64,000 nt of DNA from Actinomycetes bacterium (lineage in GTDB: Bacteria > Actinomycetota > Acidimicrobiia > Acidimicrobiales > Acidimicrobiaceae), in the NCBI GenBank assembly GCA_021819725.1, contig JAKAQR010000001.1:124001-188000 (forward strand), read 5' to 3'. The translations under genes and the position numbers were made by a program. Position 1 is the first letter of the stretch, and every line of letters starts with the position of its first letter. Below, piece after piece: positions 20,059 to 28,321 of this stretch. The notes under the pieces were generated by a model. It was not told where the DNA came from, did not search any database, and saw only the letters and a program-made list of their open reading frames with translations.

Positions 20059-20130
20059 ATGCGAACCTGCTGCCAGGGTGACGAGTGGAGCGTCCCGCTC
20101 CGCCGAACCCGCCACCATAGGCTCCTCTAA
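20059..20130 (+). CDS. putative 23-codon leader ORF with Cys-Cys
   Basis: ATG 20059 opens a frame encoding 23 residues (beginning MRTCCQ and ending RRTRHHRLL) that stops 4 nt before ATG 20135 of the large GGDEF/EAL gene. A TACGAT box at 20045-20050 lies 8 nt upstream of the ATG, so it could be translated leaderless. The downstream ATG has no ribosome-binding site, as expected if ribosomes re-initiate after the leader. There is no homology evidence; the call rests on spacing alone. Confidence 0.35.
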   Translation: MRTCCQGDEWSVPLRRTRHHRLL

Positions 20131-20134
20131 ACCG

Positions 20135-23100
20135 ATGGACACCGAACTTGTGATCGTCACTGTGTTAGCGATCATGCTCGTCACAGGCATTGGCTATCGT
20201 CTGCAACACAGCGCCAATGGGCACCATCTCCAACGCAACAACCAGCTCCAACAGCTCCTGGCGCAGGCGAGCCAGCTGATCAATGACAGCCCTGATGAGG
20301 CCCAATTTCTCCAAAAGGTCTGTGAGCTCATCTGCCAGATGCCTCCCGTACGCCTCGCATGGATCGGGCGTCCAGACGGTGACGGCACGGTTCGTCCGGT
20401 CGCCAGCTGTGGTGATGTCGCCTATCTCAGTGAGGTTCAGGTCTCTGTCCGTCAGGATTGCCCAGCAGGCCAAGGACCCGTAGGCCGTGCTTGGAGAAGT
20501 GGCACCGCTACCTATGACGATCATGCACTACGGAATCCGGACTATGAACCATGGCGTCGCGCGGCAAACACCCACCAACTCGTTGGCGTCCACGCACTCC
20601 CCATCCGGTGCCAAGGCGAACTTGACGCCATCCTGGTCGTCTATTTTGGACGCAAACCTATCCTCAATCACGAGGAACGACTGCTCCTCGAACGTCTCGC
20701 CACTGACCTCGCCACCGGCATCACCAAGATTCGCGAGCACCAATATAACCATCGATTGGCGGCCGCGCTCGCGCAGATCTCAGAAGCTGTCTTTATCGTC
20801 GACCTGGACGGCCGCATTCAGTGGTTCAACGACGGGTTGGCGGATTTATTTGTCATGAGCCGTGAGGAGATCGATGGCTCACATCCAACAATTCTCCTCG
20901 GGGATCCGCACTTTGATCAACTGCTTGAGCAATCCAGGCATCTCGCAGAGGATGAGGAGCTGCCGGACTGGGAGATTCTCCAAAAGACCGCCGCAGGTGT
21001 CAGTCGTTGGGTGCATGTCTCGGCCACACCCCTAGTCGACGATCTGCACACGATCTCTGGGGTTGTGGTAGTCGAGATCGACCTCACCGACGAGCGAGCG
21101 GCGATCGACGCAGAGCGTCGTCTGCTCGCCATCCTCGACGACACCTCCGACGGCGTCGGCATTACCGACCGCAACGGAAGACTCATCTATCTCAACAACG
21201 GCGGTCGACAATTGGTCGGGTTGAGCGCTGACACACCAGCGGAGGGGCGGCATTTCTTCGAACTGATCGGTGACGCCGTCGGACAGGAGCACTTTAGCAC
21301 CGCCGTGCAACGGGCTGCAGAGCTTGGACGTTGGGAGGGTGAGCTCAGCATCAAACGACCTGACGGAGTACAAGTCCCCCTCTCGATGGTGCTGATGGTC
21401 CATCGAAACACGGCAGGTCACGTTCAGTACATCTCGGCCATCGCGAGAAATATGGTTGACCAGAAGTTGCGTGAGAGTGAGTTGAGCTATCTCGCCGATC
21501 ATGATGCCCTCACCGGTCTCCCCAATCGTCGCGTACTCAATGCGAGCCTTGATGCCGCGATTGTGCTAGCGCAACAGACGGGGCGCCATTTCGCGGTTGG
21601 CGTGATCGACCTCGATGACTTCAAGCCAGTCAATGACCGTCTCGGACATCATGCTGGTGATGAACTGCTCGTCGGAATCGCAAAACGTCTCCGGCACCTC
21701 CTCCGCGAAGGCGACACCATCATCAGGTTGGGAGGAGACGAGTTTCTCGTGATTCTGAACGCACTCGACCCCTCCCAGGGTAGGAACGATCTCGAAATCG
21801 TCCTAGAACGCATACACGAAGCCGTCGTCACCCCTTTTGTGCTTGGCCAAGACCATCACGTCACGGTGGACATGAGCATTGGTATCGCCACTTTTCCTGA
21901 CACCTCAACCGAACCTGATGCGCTGATGCGCGAAGCCGATGCCGCACTGTATATCGCCAAACAACGCAAACGTCATCGCAGCCGCTGGTGGAGGCTCGCG
22001 TCCGATCCTGAGATTGAAGCTGAAGGCCCCCAACCAGTCGCACTAGCCCCCTCTGCCTATGGAGTTGAGGCAGAAGTCATGCTCGCAGAACTCATCTCCA
22101 AGACTCCGGAGTTGGTGACCAATGCCGTCGCGGCCTTCTATGGAGCGGTGGAGGCATCGCCCCTGGGTGCGAGCATCCTCGCTCACTTGAGCGAGAGTGA
22201 GTACCGCGCACTCAAGCGCCACCAGGCCGCTCATCTCGAATCGCTGCTCGACGGTACGCTCGAGAAACGCGCTCTCGAGCACCAGGCAGAACAGGTTGGT
22301 ACTGCCCACGCCCTCGCTGGACTACTCGCTGCGGACCTGGTCGACTCCGTCAATAGCTATCGATGCGCACTCACCGAACAGATCAGCCGTTTGCCCATCA
22401 ATCCTCGTGTGATCAAGGACATTGTTGGGGTCATCAATCGCAGAGTCGACGATGACATTGCTGCGCAGTTACGCGCGTTGTCCGCCACAACCGATACCTA
22501 CTTTAGTATTTTTGCCCACCCACTCCCAGGAGTCGACGGACTATGGATCGACAGCATCCAATCAGAGCTCGACATGATCGGACAGCTGCCCGGGATCGCC
22601 GCCATCGGTCTCGCTCGCCAGGGCGGTGGCGATAGCCTCTTGATCGAGGCGTACGCAGGTCGTGGAGGACAACGACTCGCCGAGCAGATGAACAGCCCTG
22701 GAGCACGGGTCGCTATCGACCCTCACCATCGCAATGGTCAGATGCTGTGCTCACGGGCCTGGCGTGACGCGCGCATCCTGGTAACCGATCGTATCGCCGA
22801 CGACACCATCTACGGTTCCTGGCCTTTGGACGAGGGTATCGCACTCCGTTCCGCAGTTGCGATCCCCATTCAGAATGTCGAAGGTCGACCCGTTGCGCTC
22901 CTGCTGTTGACCGGTCAGTATCCAGGGCAGTTTTCATCGGCGTGGATGGAACGCTTCAACAAGAATGTCAAGCAGCGATGGGAGAACCTGTTATATCGAA
23001 TCGCAACCCCGGACAATGTGCTAGCAAGACAACAGGCTGTCGGCTATCGAGGCTTGTTGCTGTCTGGCGGTTTGCGGATGTTCGTTCAGCCCATCGTCGA

Positions 23101-24103
23101 TCTCAAAACAGACCAGCTTGCCAAGGTCGAAGGACTCGCTCGTCTGGTAGAACCCGATGGCAACGTCATAGAGCCCGACAGATTTCTCAGTATTCTCGGT
23201 GCGGGTGAACGCTATCACCTGTTCCGGATGGGCCTCGAGCTCCTCTTGGCGGCTGATCGAGAGTGGAGAGCCTCTGGATTACTGATCGATCTCACGATCA
23301 ATGTTGATGCCACCACACTGAACTACCCCGAACTCCCCTCGTGGCTCGCTACGACGCTCATGAAGTGGGATTTCCCTCCTCATCGACTCGTCCTTGAACT
23401 CCTCGAAACCGACCGCCAGCACCTCATGCCTGACTCTGTGCGTCTCGGTGAGCTCCTAGAGCTTGGCGTCCAACTCGCGATCGACGACATGGGATCTGGT
23501 TACTCCAACTGGCTACGGCTCGTGGAGATTCCGGCCACCCTGATCAAAATCGATCATCACTTCACGGCAAGGATGGAGACACACCCCACACGTGTACTCA
23601 ACCTCCTTGGAACCCTCATCCTCACCGCCACCGACGCTTGCCAAAACGTCGTCGTTGAGGGTATCGAAAGCCCCGTCCTTGCCGAAGTCGCGGCCCGCCT
23701 TGGGGCTGGGTTTGGCCAGGGATATGGTATCGCCAAACCGATGCCCACCGACCAGCTCATCTCCTGGTCCCGCTCCTACCACCACGAACATTCCAACCAC
23801 GAACTACGCTCCCTGCTCGGAGCTATGGCCTACCACTGGTCATTTGTCCATAGTCCAATGCACTACAACAGAGGGCCGCTTGCTAACTGCCTACTCACGA
23901 GCTACTTTGTAGCTCACGATCTCGACACCAGTGAAGGCGCTGATCTGCACCGGGCGTTGCATGCTCATTCGACACCCCCAGCCGATCTGGTCAATGCCTT
24001 GACCCGCTGGTTTGAAAGGGTATGCACCCCCAATAGCAGCGACTACAACATCGCACCCCGGTCCACGTCATCACAGAGCGATGACTGGGCTTGGATTATC
24101 TAA
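20135..24103 (+). CDS. multidomain c-di-GMP protein: TM-GAF-PAS-PAS-GGDEF-globin-GAF-EAL
   Basis: A 1322-residue signalling protein with both diguanylate cyclase and phosphodiesterase domains. Approximate order: membrane segment 4-20; GAF 40-195; PAS 205-320; PAS 326-450; GGDEF 455-620, with intact GGDEF at 533-537; globin-like 649-790; second GAF 800-960; EAL 980-1220; an uncharacterised His-rich C-terminal segment to the end. The globin-like region resembles globin-coupled sensors: Tyr669 in AFYGAV and His725 in VGTAHALAGL lie 56 residues apart, close to the distal Tyr/proximal His spacing of E. coli DosC. The EAL motif reads EGL (Glu999). NVDATTLN, ELLETD, IDDMGSGYSN, IKID, VEGIES and GQGYG keep the expected catalytic residues. 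The frame is open to GTG 20078; ATG 20135 follows a short leader ORF. Confidence 0.88.
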   Translation: MDTELVIVTVLAIMLVTGIGYRLQHSANGHHLQRNNQLQQLLAQASQLINDSPDEAQFLQKVCELICQMPPVRLAWIGRPDGDGTVRPVASCGDVAYLSEVQVSVRQDCPAGQGPVGRAWRSGTATYDDHALRNPDYEPWRRAANTHQLVGVHALPIRCQGELDAILVVYFGRKPILNHEERLLLERLATDLATGITKIREHQYNHRLAAALAQISEAVFIVDLDGRIQWFNDGLADLFVMSREEIDGSHPTILLGDPHFDQLLEQSRHLAEDEELPDWEILQKTAAGVSRWVHVSATPLVDDLHTISGVVVVEIDLTDERAAIDAERRLLAILDDTSDGVGITDRNGRLIYLNNGGRQLVGLSADTPAEGRHFFELIGDAVGQEHFSTAVQRAAELGRWEGELSIKRPDGVQVPLSMVLMVHRNTAGHVQYISAIARNMVDQKLRESELSYLADHDALTGLPNRRVLNASLDAAIVLAQQTGRHFAVGVIDLDDFKPVNDRLGHHAGDELLVGIAKRLRHLLREGDTIIRLGGDEFLVILNALDPSQGRNDLEIVLERIHEAVVTPFVLGQDHHVTVDMSIGIATFPDTSTEPDALMREADAALYIAKQRKRHRSRWWRLASDPEIEAEGPQPVALAPSAYGVEAEVMLAELISKTPELVTNAVAAFYGAVEASPLGASILAHLSESEYRALKRHQAAHLESLLDGTLEKRALEHQAEQVGTAHALAGLLAADLVDSVNSYRCALTEQISRLPINPRVIKDIVGVINRRVDDDIAAQLRALSATTDTYFSIFAHPLPGVDGLWIDSIQSELDMIGQLPGIAAIGLARQGGGDSLLIEAYAGRGGQRLAEQMNSPGARVAIDPHHRNGQMLCSRAWRDARILVTDRIADDTIYGSWPLDEGIALRSAVAIPIQNVEGRPVALLLLTGQYPGQFSSAWMERFNKNVKQRWENLLYRIATPDNVLARQQAVGYRGLLLSGGLRMFVQPIVDLKTDQLAKVEGLARLVEPDGNVIEPDRFLSILGAGERYHLFRMGLELLLAADREWRASGLLIDLTINVDATTLNYPELPSWLATTLMKWDFPPHRLVLELLETDRQHLMPDSVRLGELLELGVQLAIDDMGSGYSNWLRLVEIPATLIKIDHHFTARMETHPTRVLNLLGTLILTATDACQNVVVEGIESPVLAEVAARLGAGFGQGYGIAKPMPTDQLISWSRSYHHEHSNHELRSLLGAMAYHWSFVHSPMHYNRGPLANCLLTSYFVAHDLDTSEGADLHRALHAHSTPPADLVNALTRWFERVCTPNSSDYNIAPRSTSSQSDDWAWII

Positions 24104-24145: not shown

Positions 24146-24841
24146 ATGAACCCATGTCATGTTCACCCGCCGATCTCGATCGCCGTGGTGCCCTTCTTGC
24201 TCTCTCACGAACAACCATACGTACTGCTCAACCGATCCTGCGCAAGGCTCTCACTGCTACGCGTTGGCGTTGGCGAGCTCGATGTAACACTCACGCACTA
24301 CGCCGAGCGGTTTCTTCGGCGAACACTGGGCCTGACCATCTCACCCCTCACCCAATGCGGCGCGGACCAAGATCTCAGCCAACACCCTCCGGCGATCGAC
24401 ATCTGCTATTACGGCTTTACCACTAGTCAATTCATCAACGGGGACGACCTGATCTGGACACCCTTATATCACCTCCTACCTCAAGAGGACCATCGCAACG
24501 GCCAGGCGGACCTGGACGAACCCTCCCGCGGAATCAACGACCAACACGATGCCGCCAACGGGCAGCTCTCGCAATACGATCTAGGCCTCCTCGCCACGGC
24601 CCTGGCGACGATTCGTCACTCCCTGGATCGACGACCCGTGATCGAGGAGATTGAACCGGCCGCCTTCACCCTCTCCTATCTGCAACATCGCACGGAGATG
24701 CTGCTCGGTGTGCGACTCCACACCCAAAATTTTCGTCGAAAACTACTCGACTCCGGATACCTCGAATCGATCGACATCGCGGTCAACCAGACACTGGGAA
24801 GACCCGCTCTACTCTATCGGGTTCGCAAGTCCCAAAGGTAG
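24146..24841 (+). CDS. nrtR: NrtR-type Nudix-related transcriptional regulator of NAD synthesis
   Basis: NrtR proteins repress NAD biosynthesis genes and sense ADP-ribose through an N-terminal Nudix fold. The 231-residue product has a Nudix-like N-terminal part (about 8-75), whose Nudix box is degenerate (GVGELDV...AERFLRRTLGL lacks the REUXEE core). The C-terminal winged helix is highly characteristic: FTLSYLQHRTEMLLGVRLHTQNFRRKLLDSGYLE followed by GRPALLYRV. It lies 35 bp upstream of nadA, a classic location for this regulator. ATG 24146 follows a TAACGT box by 7 nt and has no ribosome-binding site. I could not identify an operator palindrome with confidence. Confidence 0.85.
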   Translation: MNPCHVHPPISIAVVPFLLSHEQPYVLLNRSCARLSLLRVGVGELDVTLTHYAERFLRRTLGLTISPLTQCGADQDLSQHPPAIDICYYGFTTSQFINGDDLIWTPLYHLLPQEDHRNGQADLDEPSRGINDQHDAANGQLSQYDLGLLATALATIRHSLDRRPVIEEIEPAAFTLSYLQHRTEMLLGVRLHTQNFRRKLLDSGYLESIDIAVNQTLGRPALLYRVRKSQR

Positions 24842-24876
24842 CGATCCGTACGACAGTCGATAGACTAATACTCATC

Positions 24877-25866
24877 ATGAGCATAATTGCACCGCCAGTG
24901 GATATGACAGGATACCGGGAGCAGCTTGCTCGGCTGGTCGAGGAACAAAACGCCGTCATTCTCGCACACAACTACCAGCCCGCATGGGTCAAGGAACTCG
25001 CGGACTTCACCGGCGACTCCCTCTACCTTTCGCAGCGAGCGCGTGATACTGATGCCACCACCATCATCTTCGCTGGGGTGCGCTTCATGGCCGAGACTGC
25101 CAAAATCCTCTCACCAGAGAGACGTGTCTTCTTGCCTGCCGAGGATGCCGAATGTTCCCTCGCTGACTCGATCACCACCGCAGAACTCATCGAGTGGAAG
25201 AGCCGCTACCCAGAGGCCATCGTCGTGGCCTACGTCAATACTTCGGCTGCCGTCAAGGCCCTCGCCGACGTCTGCTGCACCTCTGCCAACGCCGTTGAGA
25301 TAGTTGAGTCCATCCCTCCGGATCGCGAGGTACTCTTCTTGCCGGATCAGTTTCTTGGTGCCTACGTACAACGGATCACTGGCCACCCGGGAATGCATAT
25401 CTGGATGGGAGAATGCCATGTCCACGCAGACATCTCCCCTCAACATTTGGCCGACAAGATGGCGCAGAATCCTCTCGCCACCCTGATGATCCATCCGGAG
25501 TGTGGCTGCACCACGCCCGCGCTCTACCAACTCGCCGACGCCAGTGGCGGACCCACTTCCCAGCGGATACGTATCCTCTCTACCAACCAGATGATCGAGG
25601 AGGCCAAGCGTTCGACGGCGGCCCATGTCCTTGTCGCTACCGAGATCGGCATCATGTCCGACCTCATCAGCGCCAACCCCGCGGTGCGCTTTGAGGCCGT
25701 GAATCCTCGTGCACGGTGCCCGTACATGAACCGTGTCACCCCCGAACGCCTGGTCGAGACGCTGCGCGATCACGTCGGCGAGGTCCACGTCGACCAAGAG
25801 ATCGCCGCCAAGGCACGATTAGCCGTTGAACGCATGGTCGATCCGGAGTTACGCGCATGGGGTTGA
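24877..25866 (+). CDS. nadA: quinolinate synthase A
   Basis: Condenses iminoaspartate with dihydroxyacetone phosphate to quinolinate using a [4Fe-4S] cluster. The 329-residue length is normal. Motifs are VILAHNYQP, the Cys-containing VCCTSANAVEIV, HPECGCTTPAL and NPRARCPYMNRVTPERLVETL, which supply the three cluster cysteines. No Shine-Dalgarno sequence precedes the ATG; TAATAC lies 5 nt upstream, so an internal leaderless promoter is possible. nadB overlaps its end by 10 nt. Confidence 0.96.
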   Translation: MSIIAPPVDMTGYREQLARLVEEQNAVILAHNYQPAWVKELADFTGDSLYLSQRARDTDATTIIFAGVRFMAETAKILSPERRVFLPAEDAECSLADSITTAELIEWKSRYPEAIVVAYVNTSAAVKALADVCCTSANAVEIVESIPPDREVLFLPDQFLGAYVQRITGHPGMHIWMGECHVHADISPQHLADKMAQNPLATLMIHPECGCTTPALYQLADASGGPTSQRIRILSTNQMIEEAKRSTAAHVLVATEIGIMSDLISANPAVRFEAVNPRARCPYMNRVTPERLVETLRDHVGEVHVDQEIAAKARLAVERMVDPELRAWG

Positions 25867-27386
25867 TGATGCAGATGACGCCGAGTCACGACCTCTCCTT
25901 CGACGTCGTGGTGGTCGGTGCCGGTATCGCTGGCCTCACCGTGGCGCTATCGTTACCATCAACGTTGCGCATCGCCATCGTCAGCCGAAGCTTTACCATG
26001 ACCTCCAGTCACTGGGCAAAGGGGGGCATGGCCGCAGCCCGTGGAGCCGACGACGAACCCGCCGAACATCTTCGCGATACCATCGTGGCGGGCGGAGAGT
26101 TGAATGACCCCGAACGCGTTGCCCTACTCGTCGGCGAGGCGCCGAACGCTATCGAGTTTCTTCAGCATCAAGGTGTCGTCTTTGAGGCACTGCCTGAACG
26201 CGAAGCCGGCCACGGACGGCCAAGAATCTGGCACGCCGATGGTGATGCGACCGGTGCCGCCATCATGAGCGCCCTCGGGGCACGCCAACGGGCCGCTGAT
26301 AACGTGACACCGATCGATGGCACGATGGTCGAACTCCTCAATGATGATAGCGGCGTGATCGGTATCATGATCAGCCACCGGAACGCCTTGACACTCCTCC
26401 GTGCACCTCGCATCGTGTTAGCCTCTGGCGGCGCTACCGGCCTTTGGGGGGATCACACCTCTCCCAACGCCAACCTTGGTACCGGAATTGTGAGTGCCTA
26501 TCGTGTGGGGGCGATCGCCACAGATCTCGAATTCACCCAGTTCCATCCGACCGCCATCGCGCTATCGGAATCTCCACTCTCGCTAGCGACAGAGGCGCTC
26601 CGCGGAGCGGGGGCCTGGATCGTCGATGAGGAGGGTAAGCGTTTTCTCTTTGCGAGCGATCCCGCCGGAGAGCTCGCCACCAGAGACAAGGTTGCTCGTG
26701 CCATGTATCGCCATGGCGGTCAGGCCTACCTCGATGCCCGGCCAATCGGAGGGGAGATATTAGAGAAGCGGTTCCCGACTTTTGTGCGTGAGGCCCGACA
26801 ACGGGGCCACGATCCGATCGTCACAGGCCCAGTGCCGATACGGCCAGCGGCACATTACACCATTGGTGGGGTGGTGACTGACACATGGGGTGAGACCAGT
26901 ATTCCCGGGTTATATGCGATCGGTGAATGCGCCAGCAGCGGGATCCATGGCGCGAATCGCCTCGCATCGAACTCTTTGCTCGAGGGGGTGGTTTTTGGTC
27001 GACGCGCGGCTCGCCACCTTGTCGACGCTCCCAACTCCGCAGCTCCAACCCACTTCCCACGCTCCACCAACCTACCAACCACGGCGCCATCACGCATTGC
27101 TCTGGCTCGCATCGTCGACGACGCCCTCGGCATCGAACGCGACGCGGTGGCGCTCGAGACTGCCCTCGAGGCGCTCACCGACGTGGCGACTTGTGAGATG
27201 GATCCCTTCAGTGCCCATGAACTCACTCTGGCATCGCACCTCGTCTCGATGATGCTCATCGCCGCCAAAGAGCGCCACGGCACCGTCGGTGCACACACAC
27301 GTGCCGATGAACAAGCTGAGGATCCTCATTACCGCCTCACCTTCGCCATCGGGTCCACTCCTCGTCGAGAGGCTCGGGTATGGTGA
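25857..27386 (+). CDS. nadB: L-aspartate oxidase
   Basis: FAD enzyme oxidising L-aspartate to iminoaspartate, the substrate of NadA. The 509-residue product has the FAD dinucleotide-binding motif VVVVGAGIAGLTVALSL, the substrate-loop motif SHWAKGGMAAARG, LASGGATGLW, EFTQFHPTAI and the C-terminal flavin motif GLYAIGECASSGIHGANRLASNS (split here by residues shared with the succinate dehydrogenase family). ATG 25857 overlaps the nadA stop by 10 nt and has GGAG 8 nt upstream; ATGs at 25866 and 25869 are alternatives. It is cotranscribed with nadA and nadC. Confidence 0.95.
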   Translation: MGLMMQMTPSHDLSFDVVVVGAGIAGLTVALSLPSTLRIAIVSRSFTMTSSHWAKGGMAAARGADDEPAEHLRDTIVAGGELNDPERVALLVGEAPNAIEFLQHQGVVFEALPEREAGHGRPRIWHADGDATGAAIMSALGARQRAADNVTPIDGTMVELLNDDSGVIGIMISHRNALTLLRAPRIVLASGGATGLWGDHTSPNANLGTGIVSAYRVGAIATDLEFTQFHPTAIALSESPLSLATEALRGAGAWIVDEEGKRFLFASDPAGELATRDKVARAMYRHGGQAYLDARPIGGEILEKRFPTFVREARQRGHDPIVTGPVPIRPAAHYTIGGVVTDTWGETSIPGLYAIGECASSGIHGANRLASNSLLEGVVFGRRAARHLVDAPNSAAPTHFPRSTNLPTTAPSRIALARIVDDALGIERDAVALETALEALTDVATCEMDPFSAHELTLASHLVSMMLIAAKERHGTVGAHTRADEQAEDPHYRLTFAIGSTPRREARVW

Positions 27387-28321
27387 TGTTATCCCCGGGC
27401 CCTATCGTCGATCTGGCCCTCATCGATCTAGCCCTCGACGAGGATCTCGTTGAGCCCGTCACCGCCGCCGAGGAGACCCACCCTCTCCCCGGGGCCGATG
27501 GTGTCGCACCGACGCGGCAACTACGCCCGTGTTCAACCGCAGGAGATCTCACCGGCTCACTCGTAGCTCATCAGGTAGTAGCGCTGACACTGCGCGCCCG
27601 GGCCCATGGGGTTTTTGTTGGTCAAACGGTGGCCCCGGTGGTACTAGGCCGGGTGGCAGAACGCTTAGGCACCGCAGCACCGACCTATGATCCAATCGTC
27701 ACCGATGGGACAATGGTGGAACCCGGTGCGACACTCGCCTGGCTGCGTGGTGATCTTCGGACGGTCTTGGCAGCAGAACGGACGATGCTCAACCTCCTCT
27801 GCCATCTTTCGGGGGTGGCGAGCACCACGCGGAGCTACGTCGAAGCCGTCGTGGGGACGAAGGCGGTCATACGTGACACCCGTAAGACGACTCCGGGATT
27901 ACGGAGCTTGGAGAAGTATGCGGTTCGTTGCGGGGGTGGCAGCAACCATCGCCTCGGTCTCTGGGACGGTATTCTCATCAAAGACAACCATCTCGCCTTC
28001 GCGCCCATGGAGGAGCTCGTGACCCGCGCCCGGCTATCGCACCCGGATCGACCACTCGAAGTCGAGGTCGATAACCTCACCCAACTGCACCAGGCCCTCG
28101 ACCTTGCCGTCGATCTCATTCTTCTCGACAATATGGAACTTGGAATGATCGCCGAGGCGGTACAGATCAGTCGAGGCCGTTGTCGACTCGAGGTCTCCGG
28201 TGGCGTGGGACTGGATCGCCTACGAGCGATCGCCGAAACCGGGGTGGATTATATTGCGGTCGGTGCACTCACCCACTCCACACCTATTCTTGATCTTGGT
28301 CTCGACTATCCCGACGCGTAG
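27380..28321 (+). CDS. nadC: nicotinate-nucleotide pyrophosphorylase (quinolinate phosphoribosyltransferase)
   Basis: Converts quinolinate and PRPP to nicotinate mononucleotide, completing the de novo branch begun by NadB and NadA. The 313-residue product has ERTMLNLLCHLSGVAS, the phosphate/PRPP-binding IRDTRKTTPGLRSLEKYAVRCGGGSNHRLGL region, LIKDNHL, EVEVDNL and the C-terminal EVSGGVGLDRLRAIAETGVDYIAVGALTHS. Its ATG overlaps the nadB stop by 7 nt. The last 38 nt overlap the convergent DUF151 nuclease gene. Confidence 0.96.
   Translation: MVMLSPGPIVDLALIDLALDEDLVEPVTAAEETHPLPGADGVAPTRQLRPCSTAGDLTGSLVAHQVVALTLRARAHGVFVGQTVAPVVLGRVAERLGTAAPTYDPIVTDGTMVEPGATLAWLRGDLRTVLAAERTMLNLLCHLSGVASTTRSYVEAVVGTKAVIRDTRKTTPGLRSLEKYAVRCGGGSNHRLGLWDGILIKDNHLAFAPMEELVTRARLSHPDRPLEVEVDNLTQLHQALDLAVDLILLDNMELGMIAEAVQISRGRCRLEVSGGVGLDRLRAIAETGVDYIAVGALTHSTPILDLGLDYPDA

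Follow-up and report, generated by a model that had tools for sequence, protein, structure and literature searches.

A sensor globin between the GGDEF and EAL domains of an acidimicrobial protein, and the globin-GAF-EAL unit to which it probably belongs

Introduction

Among the described systems comparable to the protein studied here, DcpG of Paenibacillus dendritiformis reportedly carries its globin at the N-terminus. Its single chain combines a sensor globin, a GGDEF and an EAL domain and has both activities, synthesis and breakdown of cyclic di-GMP (c-di-GMP) (PMC10882959). Here we analysed a protein encoded in a 64,000-nucleotide stretch of DNA from an Actinomycetes bacterium of the family Acidimicrobiaceae (GenBank assembly GCA_021819725.1, contig JAKAQR010000001.1, positions 124,001 to 188,000; the whole stretch is hereafter called the window), which has the same three domains but, unlike DcpG, carries the globin after the GGDEF domain and together with the EAL domain.

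Escherichia coli DosC resembles this protein in having a globin with an F-Y pair and a proximal histidine (F42, Y43 and H98; PMC5549716), and DosC and DosP link c-di-GMP synthesis and breakdown to O2; there, however, the work is divided between two proteins, and in DosP the O2 sensor is a haem PAS domain and not a globin (PMC4263535). The globin-coupled sensor (GCS)-HD-GYP protein of Vibrio fluvialis also has a globin gating a c-di-GMP phosphodiesterase, but with HD-GYP instead of EAL, an N-terminal globin and no cyclase (PMC10882959). The same three domains occur, again in acidophile hosts, in Acidithiobacillus proteins of the AFE_1712 type (AFE_1712 itself is written as Protoglobin-GGDEF-EAL-CZB, and 80 Protoglobin proteins are counted among 387 GGDEF-EAL proteins of Acidithiobacillia; PMC6416229) and in L081, a protein from a genome of the window's own taxonomic family. 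In contrast to the window protein, the globin comes first in L081, in an Acidithiobacillus caldus plasmid protein (L082) and in the Acidithiobacillus-type loci. As an observation in its own right, the globins of L081 (419-3250, - strand) and L082 (3968-6619, + strand) are 44.5% identical, across phyla. Finally, the GCS-EAL protein of A. caldus SM-1 (a table entry in PMC6416229) and a further Acidithiobacillus protein described below (L112) have a globin before EAL without a GGDEF domain; they differ from the window protein in lacking a fused cyclase half.

Results

The initial annotation of the window, made from the sequence alone, had proposed a sensor globin between the GGDEF and EAL domains of a 1322-residue protein, and had suggested a search with the Protoglobin hidden Markov model (HMM) and a structure prediction as checks. 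Pfam, a family profile and the predicted fold all bore this out. Residues are numbered throughout from the GTG at 20078, so that the Tyr669 and His725 singled out in that annotation are Tyr688 and His744 here. The features of the globin are as follows:

22046..22504, + strand: sensor globin domain, residues 657-809 (Pfam, family profile, predicted fold)
22139..22141, + strand: Tyr688, likely distal B10 tyrosine (aligned with HemAT Tyr70)
22232..22234, + strand: His719, E-helix histidine in a QxxH motif (aligned with HemAT His99)
22307..22309, + strand: His744, likely proximal haem ligand (aligned with HemAT His123)

The Pfam Protoglobin match spanned residues 678-794 and scored 27.2 bits for the segment alone (E-value (E) 4.5e-6), 24.9 bits for a longer segment and 22.1 bits for the whole protein, the Pfam cut-off being 25. 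The interval first proposed for the domain was nearly right, but the modelled start, at about 22046, lies about 11 residues upstream of the 22079 given before. When the window genome was scanned with Protoglobin, a single place was matched, at 26.7 bits, while this genome was absent from the matches listed by a Protoglobin run across 396 genomes; the domain is therefore near the limit of that search, and counts of this kind are lower bounds. A profile built from 18 family domains reached HemAT (E 2.6e-8) and AfGcHK (E 2.9e-8), and its alignment paired Tyr688 with HemAT Tyr70, His719 with His99 and His744 with His123 (HemAT residue numbers were counted from this alignment). The choice of key residues thus stood, as did the FY pair (F687-Y688) and the parallel drawn with Tyr43 and His98 of DosC. 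Against the PDB, the globin domain alone as a sequence query gave no match, and a profile of the close family matched three entries, none of them a globin and none with E below 0.44. Structure prediction gave a sensor-globin fold. The globin match is far beyond chance, and by predicted fold, sequence profile and proximal F8 histidine (His744) the domain is of the GCS type.

A first family profile matched 16 of the 298 genomes of the window's order. Four of these matches, to a MeaB protein (L061) and three others, were dropped as chance (E > 0.005), and 12 genomes remained: eight of the 12 searched in the window's own taxonomic family, and four from another family. A scan of genome contigs with the window segment returned no relative, near genomes possibly lying outside the scanned set. 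The globin recurred as part of a globin-GAF-EAL unit, which stood alone in three deposited proteins (P0009-P0011; 703-710 residues, starting at a Met just before the globin) and in L055, L056 and L057, L056 being interrupted by the contig end. In L053 (= P0008, from Acidithrix sp. C25) the unit was preceded by a hemerythrin domain, a weak GAF and a GGDEF domain, and L052 showed hemerythrin, weak GAF, GGDEF and globin as far as the contig end. The unit came first in L059, L060 and L077, with PAS and GGDEF domains after EAL, and in L076, where GAF and PAS domains followed up to the end of the frame; in these four proteins the globin was called by family profiles only, without a Pfam call (E 1.2e-7 for L059, 7.6e-6 for L060 and about 4e-14 for both L076 and L077). 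L058 had EAL as its sole domain by Pfam. In the window protein the globin likewise stands N-terminal to GAF-EAL, and C-terminal to GGDEF.

Apart from this, the Acidithrix protein (L053 1987-5745, + strand; P0008) has hemerythrin and globin around one GGDEF domain, before EAL, and thus two different oxygen-binding folds in a single c-di-GMP enzyme. A 745-residue protein with globin and EAL domains is encoded in an Acidithiobacillus ferrianus genome, to which L095 had led (L112 2588-4822, + strand). It scored 79 bits with the family profile, 18 with a small canonical profile and 21.4, under the cut-off, with Pfam, and the resemblance hints at exchange between unrelated acidophiles.

All 20 proteins used for the tree described below had an EAL domain by Pfam, whether GGDEF stood before, after or nowhere. 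Where Pfam called both globin and EAL, they were roughly 190-230 residues apart, often with a detectable GAF between them. Since EAL is the constant partner of this globin and GGDEF is not, the architecture suggests that the globin most likely gates the EAL half. The initial annotation had instead proposed one switch between synthesis and breakdown, and this was not supported, as EAL follows the globin in 20/20 proteins while GGDEF varies in position or is absent. We consider it improbable that a single globin toggles the two activities by acting on the GGDEF domain before it and the EAL domain behind it, for this reason and because the GGDEF domain is already preceded by its own GAF-PAS-PAS sensors; yet a middle domain of a large dimer could pull both ways, and DcpG, to which such a toggle would be somewhat alike, degrades c-di-GMP in its O2 form and makes it in its NO form (PMC10882959).

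The internal position was also said to be unusual, and our survey agreed. A Protoglobin search of 398 genomes of the phylum of an Acidithiobacillus genome (Pseudomonadota) gave matches in 123. Domain order, assigned with small purpose-built profiles, was read for 14 open frames of >= 600 residues, outside G935, among the matches listed: 11 of the 14 combined globin, GGDEF and EAL, always with the globin first (11/11), and the remaining three were globin only. In a further set of 16 loci, all three domains were present in 15, again with the globin first in 15/15, and the sixteenth was globin only. Beyond Pseudomonadota, order was read in the window's phylum, where four non-family proteins were covered (L081, L078, L079 and L019). 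The published literature searched, supplements and most subscription journals aside, yielded no globin between GGDEF and EAL in the text accessible to us. The internal globin is a new arrangement among globin-coupled sensors and its place is unusual within the survey, though other cases may exist.

We then compared the F8 position across 22 family domains, a set that leaves out the near-copies L049 (of P0002), L053 (of P0008) and L057 (of P0009) as well as L110-L112. His occupied the position in 17 domains; in the other five (P0004-P0007 and L050) the residue was Phe or Leu. The 20-protein tree was based on post-globin columns only and has several long branches and one gappy row (L058); in it the His change was single, the His-less rows lying on one side of a branch with support 100/99, and the branch uniting the window clade with the His-less clade had support 88/85. 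Because more distant rows bear His, we read the His-less state as a loss. Of the 18 profile domains, 11 keep the His although their identity to the window domain is as low as 21-28%, so that this residue is probably held by selection. At B10, the 17 His-bearing domains had Tyr (12), Phe (3), His (1) or Thr (1), and the five His-less ones Tyr (3), Asn (1) or Asp (1). P0004-P0007 also read AGDEF instead of GGDEF (4/4).

The domain of the His-less five has probably lost the usual mode of haem binding. With the proximal His kept in 17/22 domains and missing in one clade, haem is likely in the window protein but not family-wide; a ferrochelatase is present in the window genome, which we counted for this reading, and haem binding by the window protein is plausible as judged from these residues. 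It is unlikely that the domain is a haem-free sensor globin throughout, sensing a lipid or merely dimerising, with His744 as a relic. The N-terminal domain of RsbR and the Bacillus pXO sporulation inhibitors are haem-free, and the His-less clade would fit such a role; the HisK_N profile of haem-free globin-like sensors gave 14.4 bits on the window protein (cut-off 24.4). The retention of His at low identity argues for a haem-binding domain instead.

Very unlikely, in our view, is a degenerate globin that serves as a spacer or dimerisation piece and is heading for loss. The globin does diverge faster than PAS2, GGDEF, GAF2 and EAL among P0001-P0007, and by a slightly wider margin in the His-less clade, a difference that rests on few pairs and to which we gave no weight. 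Yet when the window was compared with L049, its nearest relative, the globin had a ratio of nonsynonymous to synonymous substitution rates (dN/dS) of 0.11, which falls among the values of the other domains (0.05-0.14), and the His-Tyr pocket is kept in the window clade. In the same comparison, dN was higher in the first GAF than in the globin and equal in EAL and globin.

The complete protein has the Pfam domain order GAF, PAS, PAS, GGDEF, Protoglobin, weak GAF, EAL, in line with the two GAF and two PAS domains of the initial annotation. The remaining features are as follows:

20135..24103, + strand: gene of the 1322-residue GAF-PAS-PAS-GGDEF-globin-GAF-EAL protein (GTG 20078 is also a possible start)
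20144..20203, + strand: likely N-terminal membrane helix, residues 23-42 (the hydropathy peak of the protein is at residue 24)
20294..20722, + strand: first GAF, residues 73-215 (Pfam)
20753..21097, + strand: first PAS, residues 226-340 (Pfam, NCBIfam)
21134..21442, + strand: second PAS, residues 353-455 (Pfam)
21494..21976, + strand: GGDEF domain, residues 473-633 (Pfam), with an intact GGDEF motif at 552-556
22694..22936, + strand: second GAF between globin and EAL, matched part, residues 873-953 (Pfam, segment)
23057..23740, + strand: EAL domain, residues 994-1221 (Pfam), whose motif reads EGL
23810..24025, + strand: C-terminal helical tail with Cys1271 and His1291-x3-His1295, a possible metal site (alignment, model)

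An RxxD motif, which we take to be the inhibitory site, lies at 543-546, five residues upstream of the GGDEF motif. In the EAL domain, the signature EGL is accompanied by the further catalytic motifs ELLET, DDMG, LIKID, VEGIE and QGY. With catalytic motifs of both domains present, the protein is a putative bifunctional GGDEF-EAL enzyme. The second GAF scored 25.4 bits by Pfam in the segment, below its cut-off of 28.6, and in the predicted model of the C-terminal half (predicted template modelling score 0.52) the GAF part was poor.

Behind EAL, one Cys and the HxxxH pair of the tail are conserved in all 11 aligned sequences, the window included, and possibly resemble a metal site. A Pfam CZB match was absent from the eight family members scanned (8/8), the Cys and the HxxxH region of the tail aligned with the CZB of L081 at a probability of only 0.9%, and the CZB match of L081 itself was just under the Pfam cut-off; the resemblance of the tail to CZB is suggestive but weak.

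The open reading frame covers 20078-24103 (+ strand), with 1341 residues from the GTG and 1322 from the ATG at 20135. This ATG is the start position in five of the six close homologues and gives the protein length first proposed. The same number (5/6) have the complete layout; the sixth, P0003, is shorter and retains the layout from near the C-terminal end of its first PAS onward. Since two of the six carry the source name Ferrimicrobium sp., the genus of the window genome is probably Ferrimicrobium, and the host is probably an iron-oxidising acidophile. The gene has an FtsW/RodA gene on one side and an NrtR-nadA cluster on the other, and pieces of these neighbours also flank it in three more congeneric genomes (L049, L050 and L051). 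L050 occupies the chromosomal place of the window gene, yet its globin lacks the proximal His. Downstream, at 24146-28318 of the window, lie genes for an NrtR-like regulator, nadA, nadB and nadC; nrtR and nadA are downstream of the gene in three more genomes of the genus as well. In the window genome there were 14 GGDEF matches against one PilZ and one Protoglobin match.

Discussion

On balance, we favour a fusion of two one-component enzymes as the explanation of this protein: a GAF-PAS-PAS-GGDEF cyclase and a globin-GAF-EAL phosphodiesterase, with the globin as the sensor of the latter and, here, binding haem. Of this explanation, the fold, the family and the recurrence of the unit have computational support. 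The cyclase half would probably be membrane-anchored, and the internal globin would be the front sensor of the phosphodiesterase half. We infer haem binding, gas response and the identity of the gated enzyme as follows. Haem would be bound via His744, and O2 (or NO, CO or a redox change) would act at the haem, steadied by Tyr688. The change in ligand could shift the last globin helix and, via the GAF domain, raise or lower EAL activity; oxygen would thereby tune the breakdown of c-di-GMP, and its synthesis would be tuned by the GAF and PAS domains at the front. As the O2-bound globins of DcpG and of the V. fluvialis GCS-HD-GYP protein can activate breakdown, O2 activation of breakdown is our first guess, by analogy.

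Several results weigh against this explanation. The Protoglobin score is barely over the cut-off for the segment and under it for the whole protein; Pfam Protoglobin matches four of the seven close domains at E <= 1, and whole-protein scans at E <= 0.05 gave no Protoglobin match in L049, L050, L051, L058, L059, L060, L076 and L077. Because Pfam misses so many members, much of the family is defined by profile and alignment. Between globin and EAL, Pfam finds no GAF in L112, and the GAF of the window protein at this place is weak. The EAL signature reads EGL rather than EAL. Finally, five relatives, one of them congeneric and at the same locus, retain the globin domain without an equivalent of His744, and the Tyr688 position is replaced in five of the 17 His-bearing domains.

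The fusion with a sensor for the phosphodiesterase half can be taken a step further, more tentatively and with somewhat less than even confidence: the protein may be a single-chain counterpart of DosC/DosP, with a gas-sensing globin in the EAL half. Ligand-bearing and ligand-less forms at the same place would then represent one sensor that has been repurposed or left unregulated.

Haem sensors are normally read from an N-terminal place, and it is tempting to credit one sensor with control over an entire protein. In this case the recurrence of the unit suggests the half that the globin controls, and globin-GAF-EAL is a compact object for tests. Comparing relatives that bear the proximal His with those that lack it would be a natural experiment on the contribution of haem to c-di-GMP control in these bacteria.
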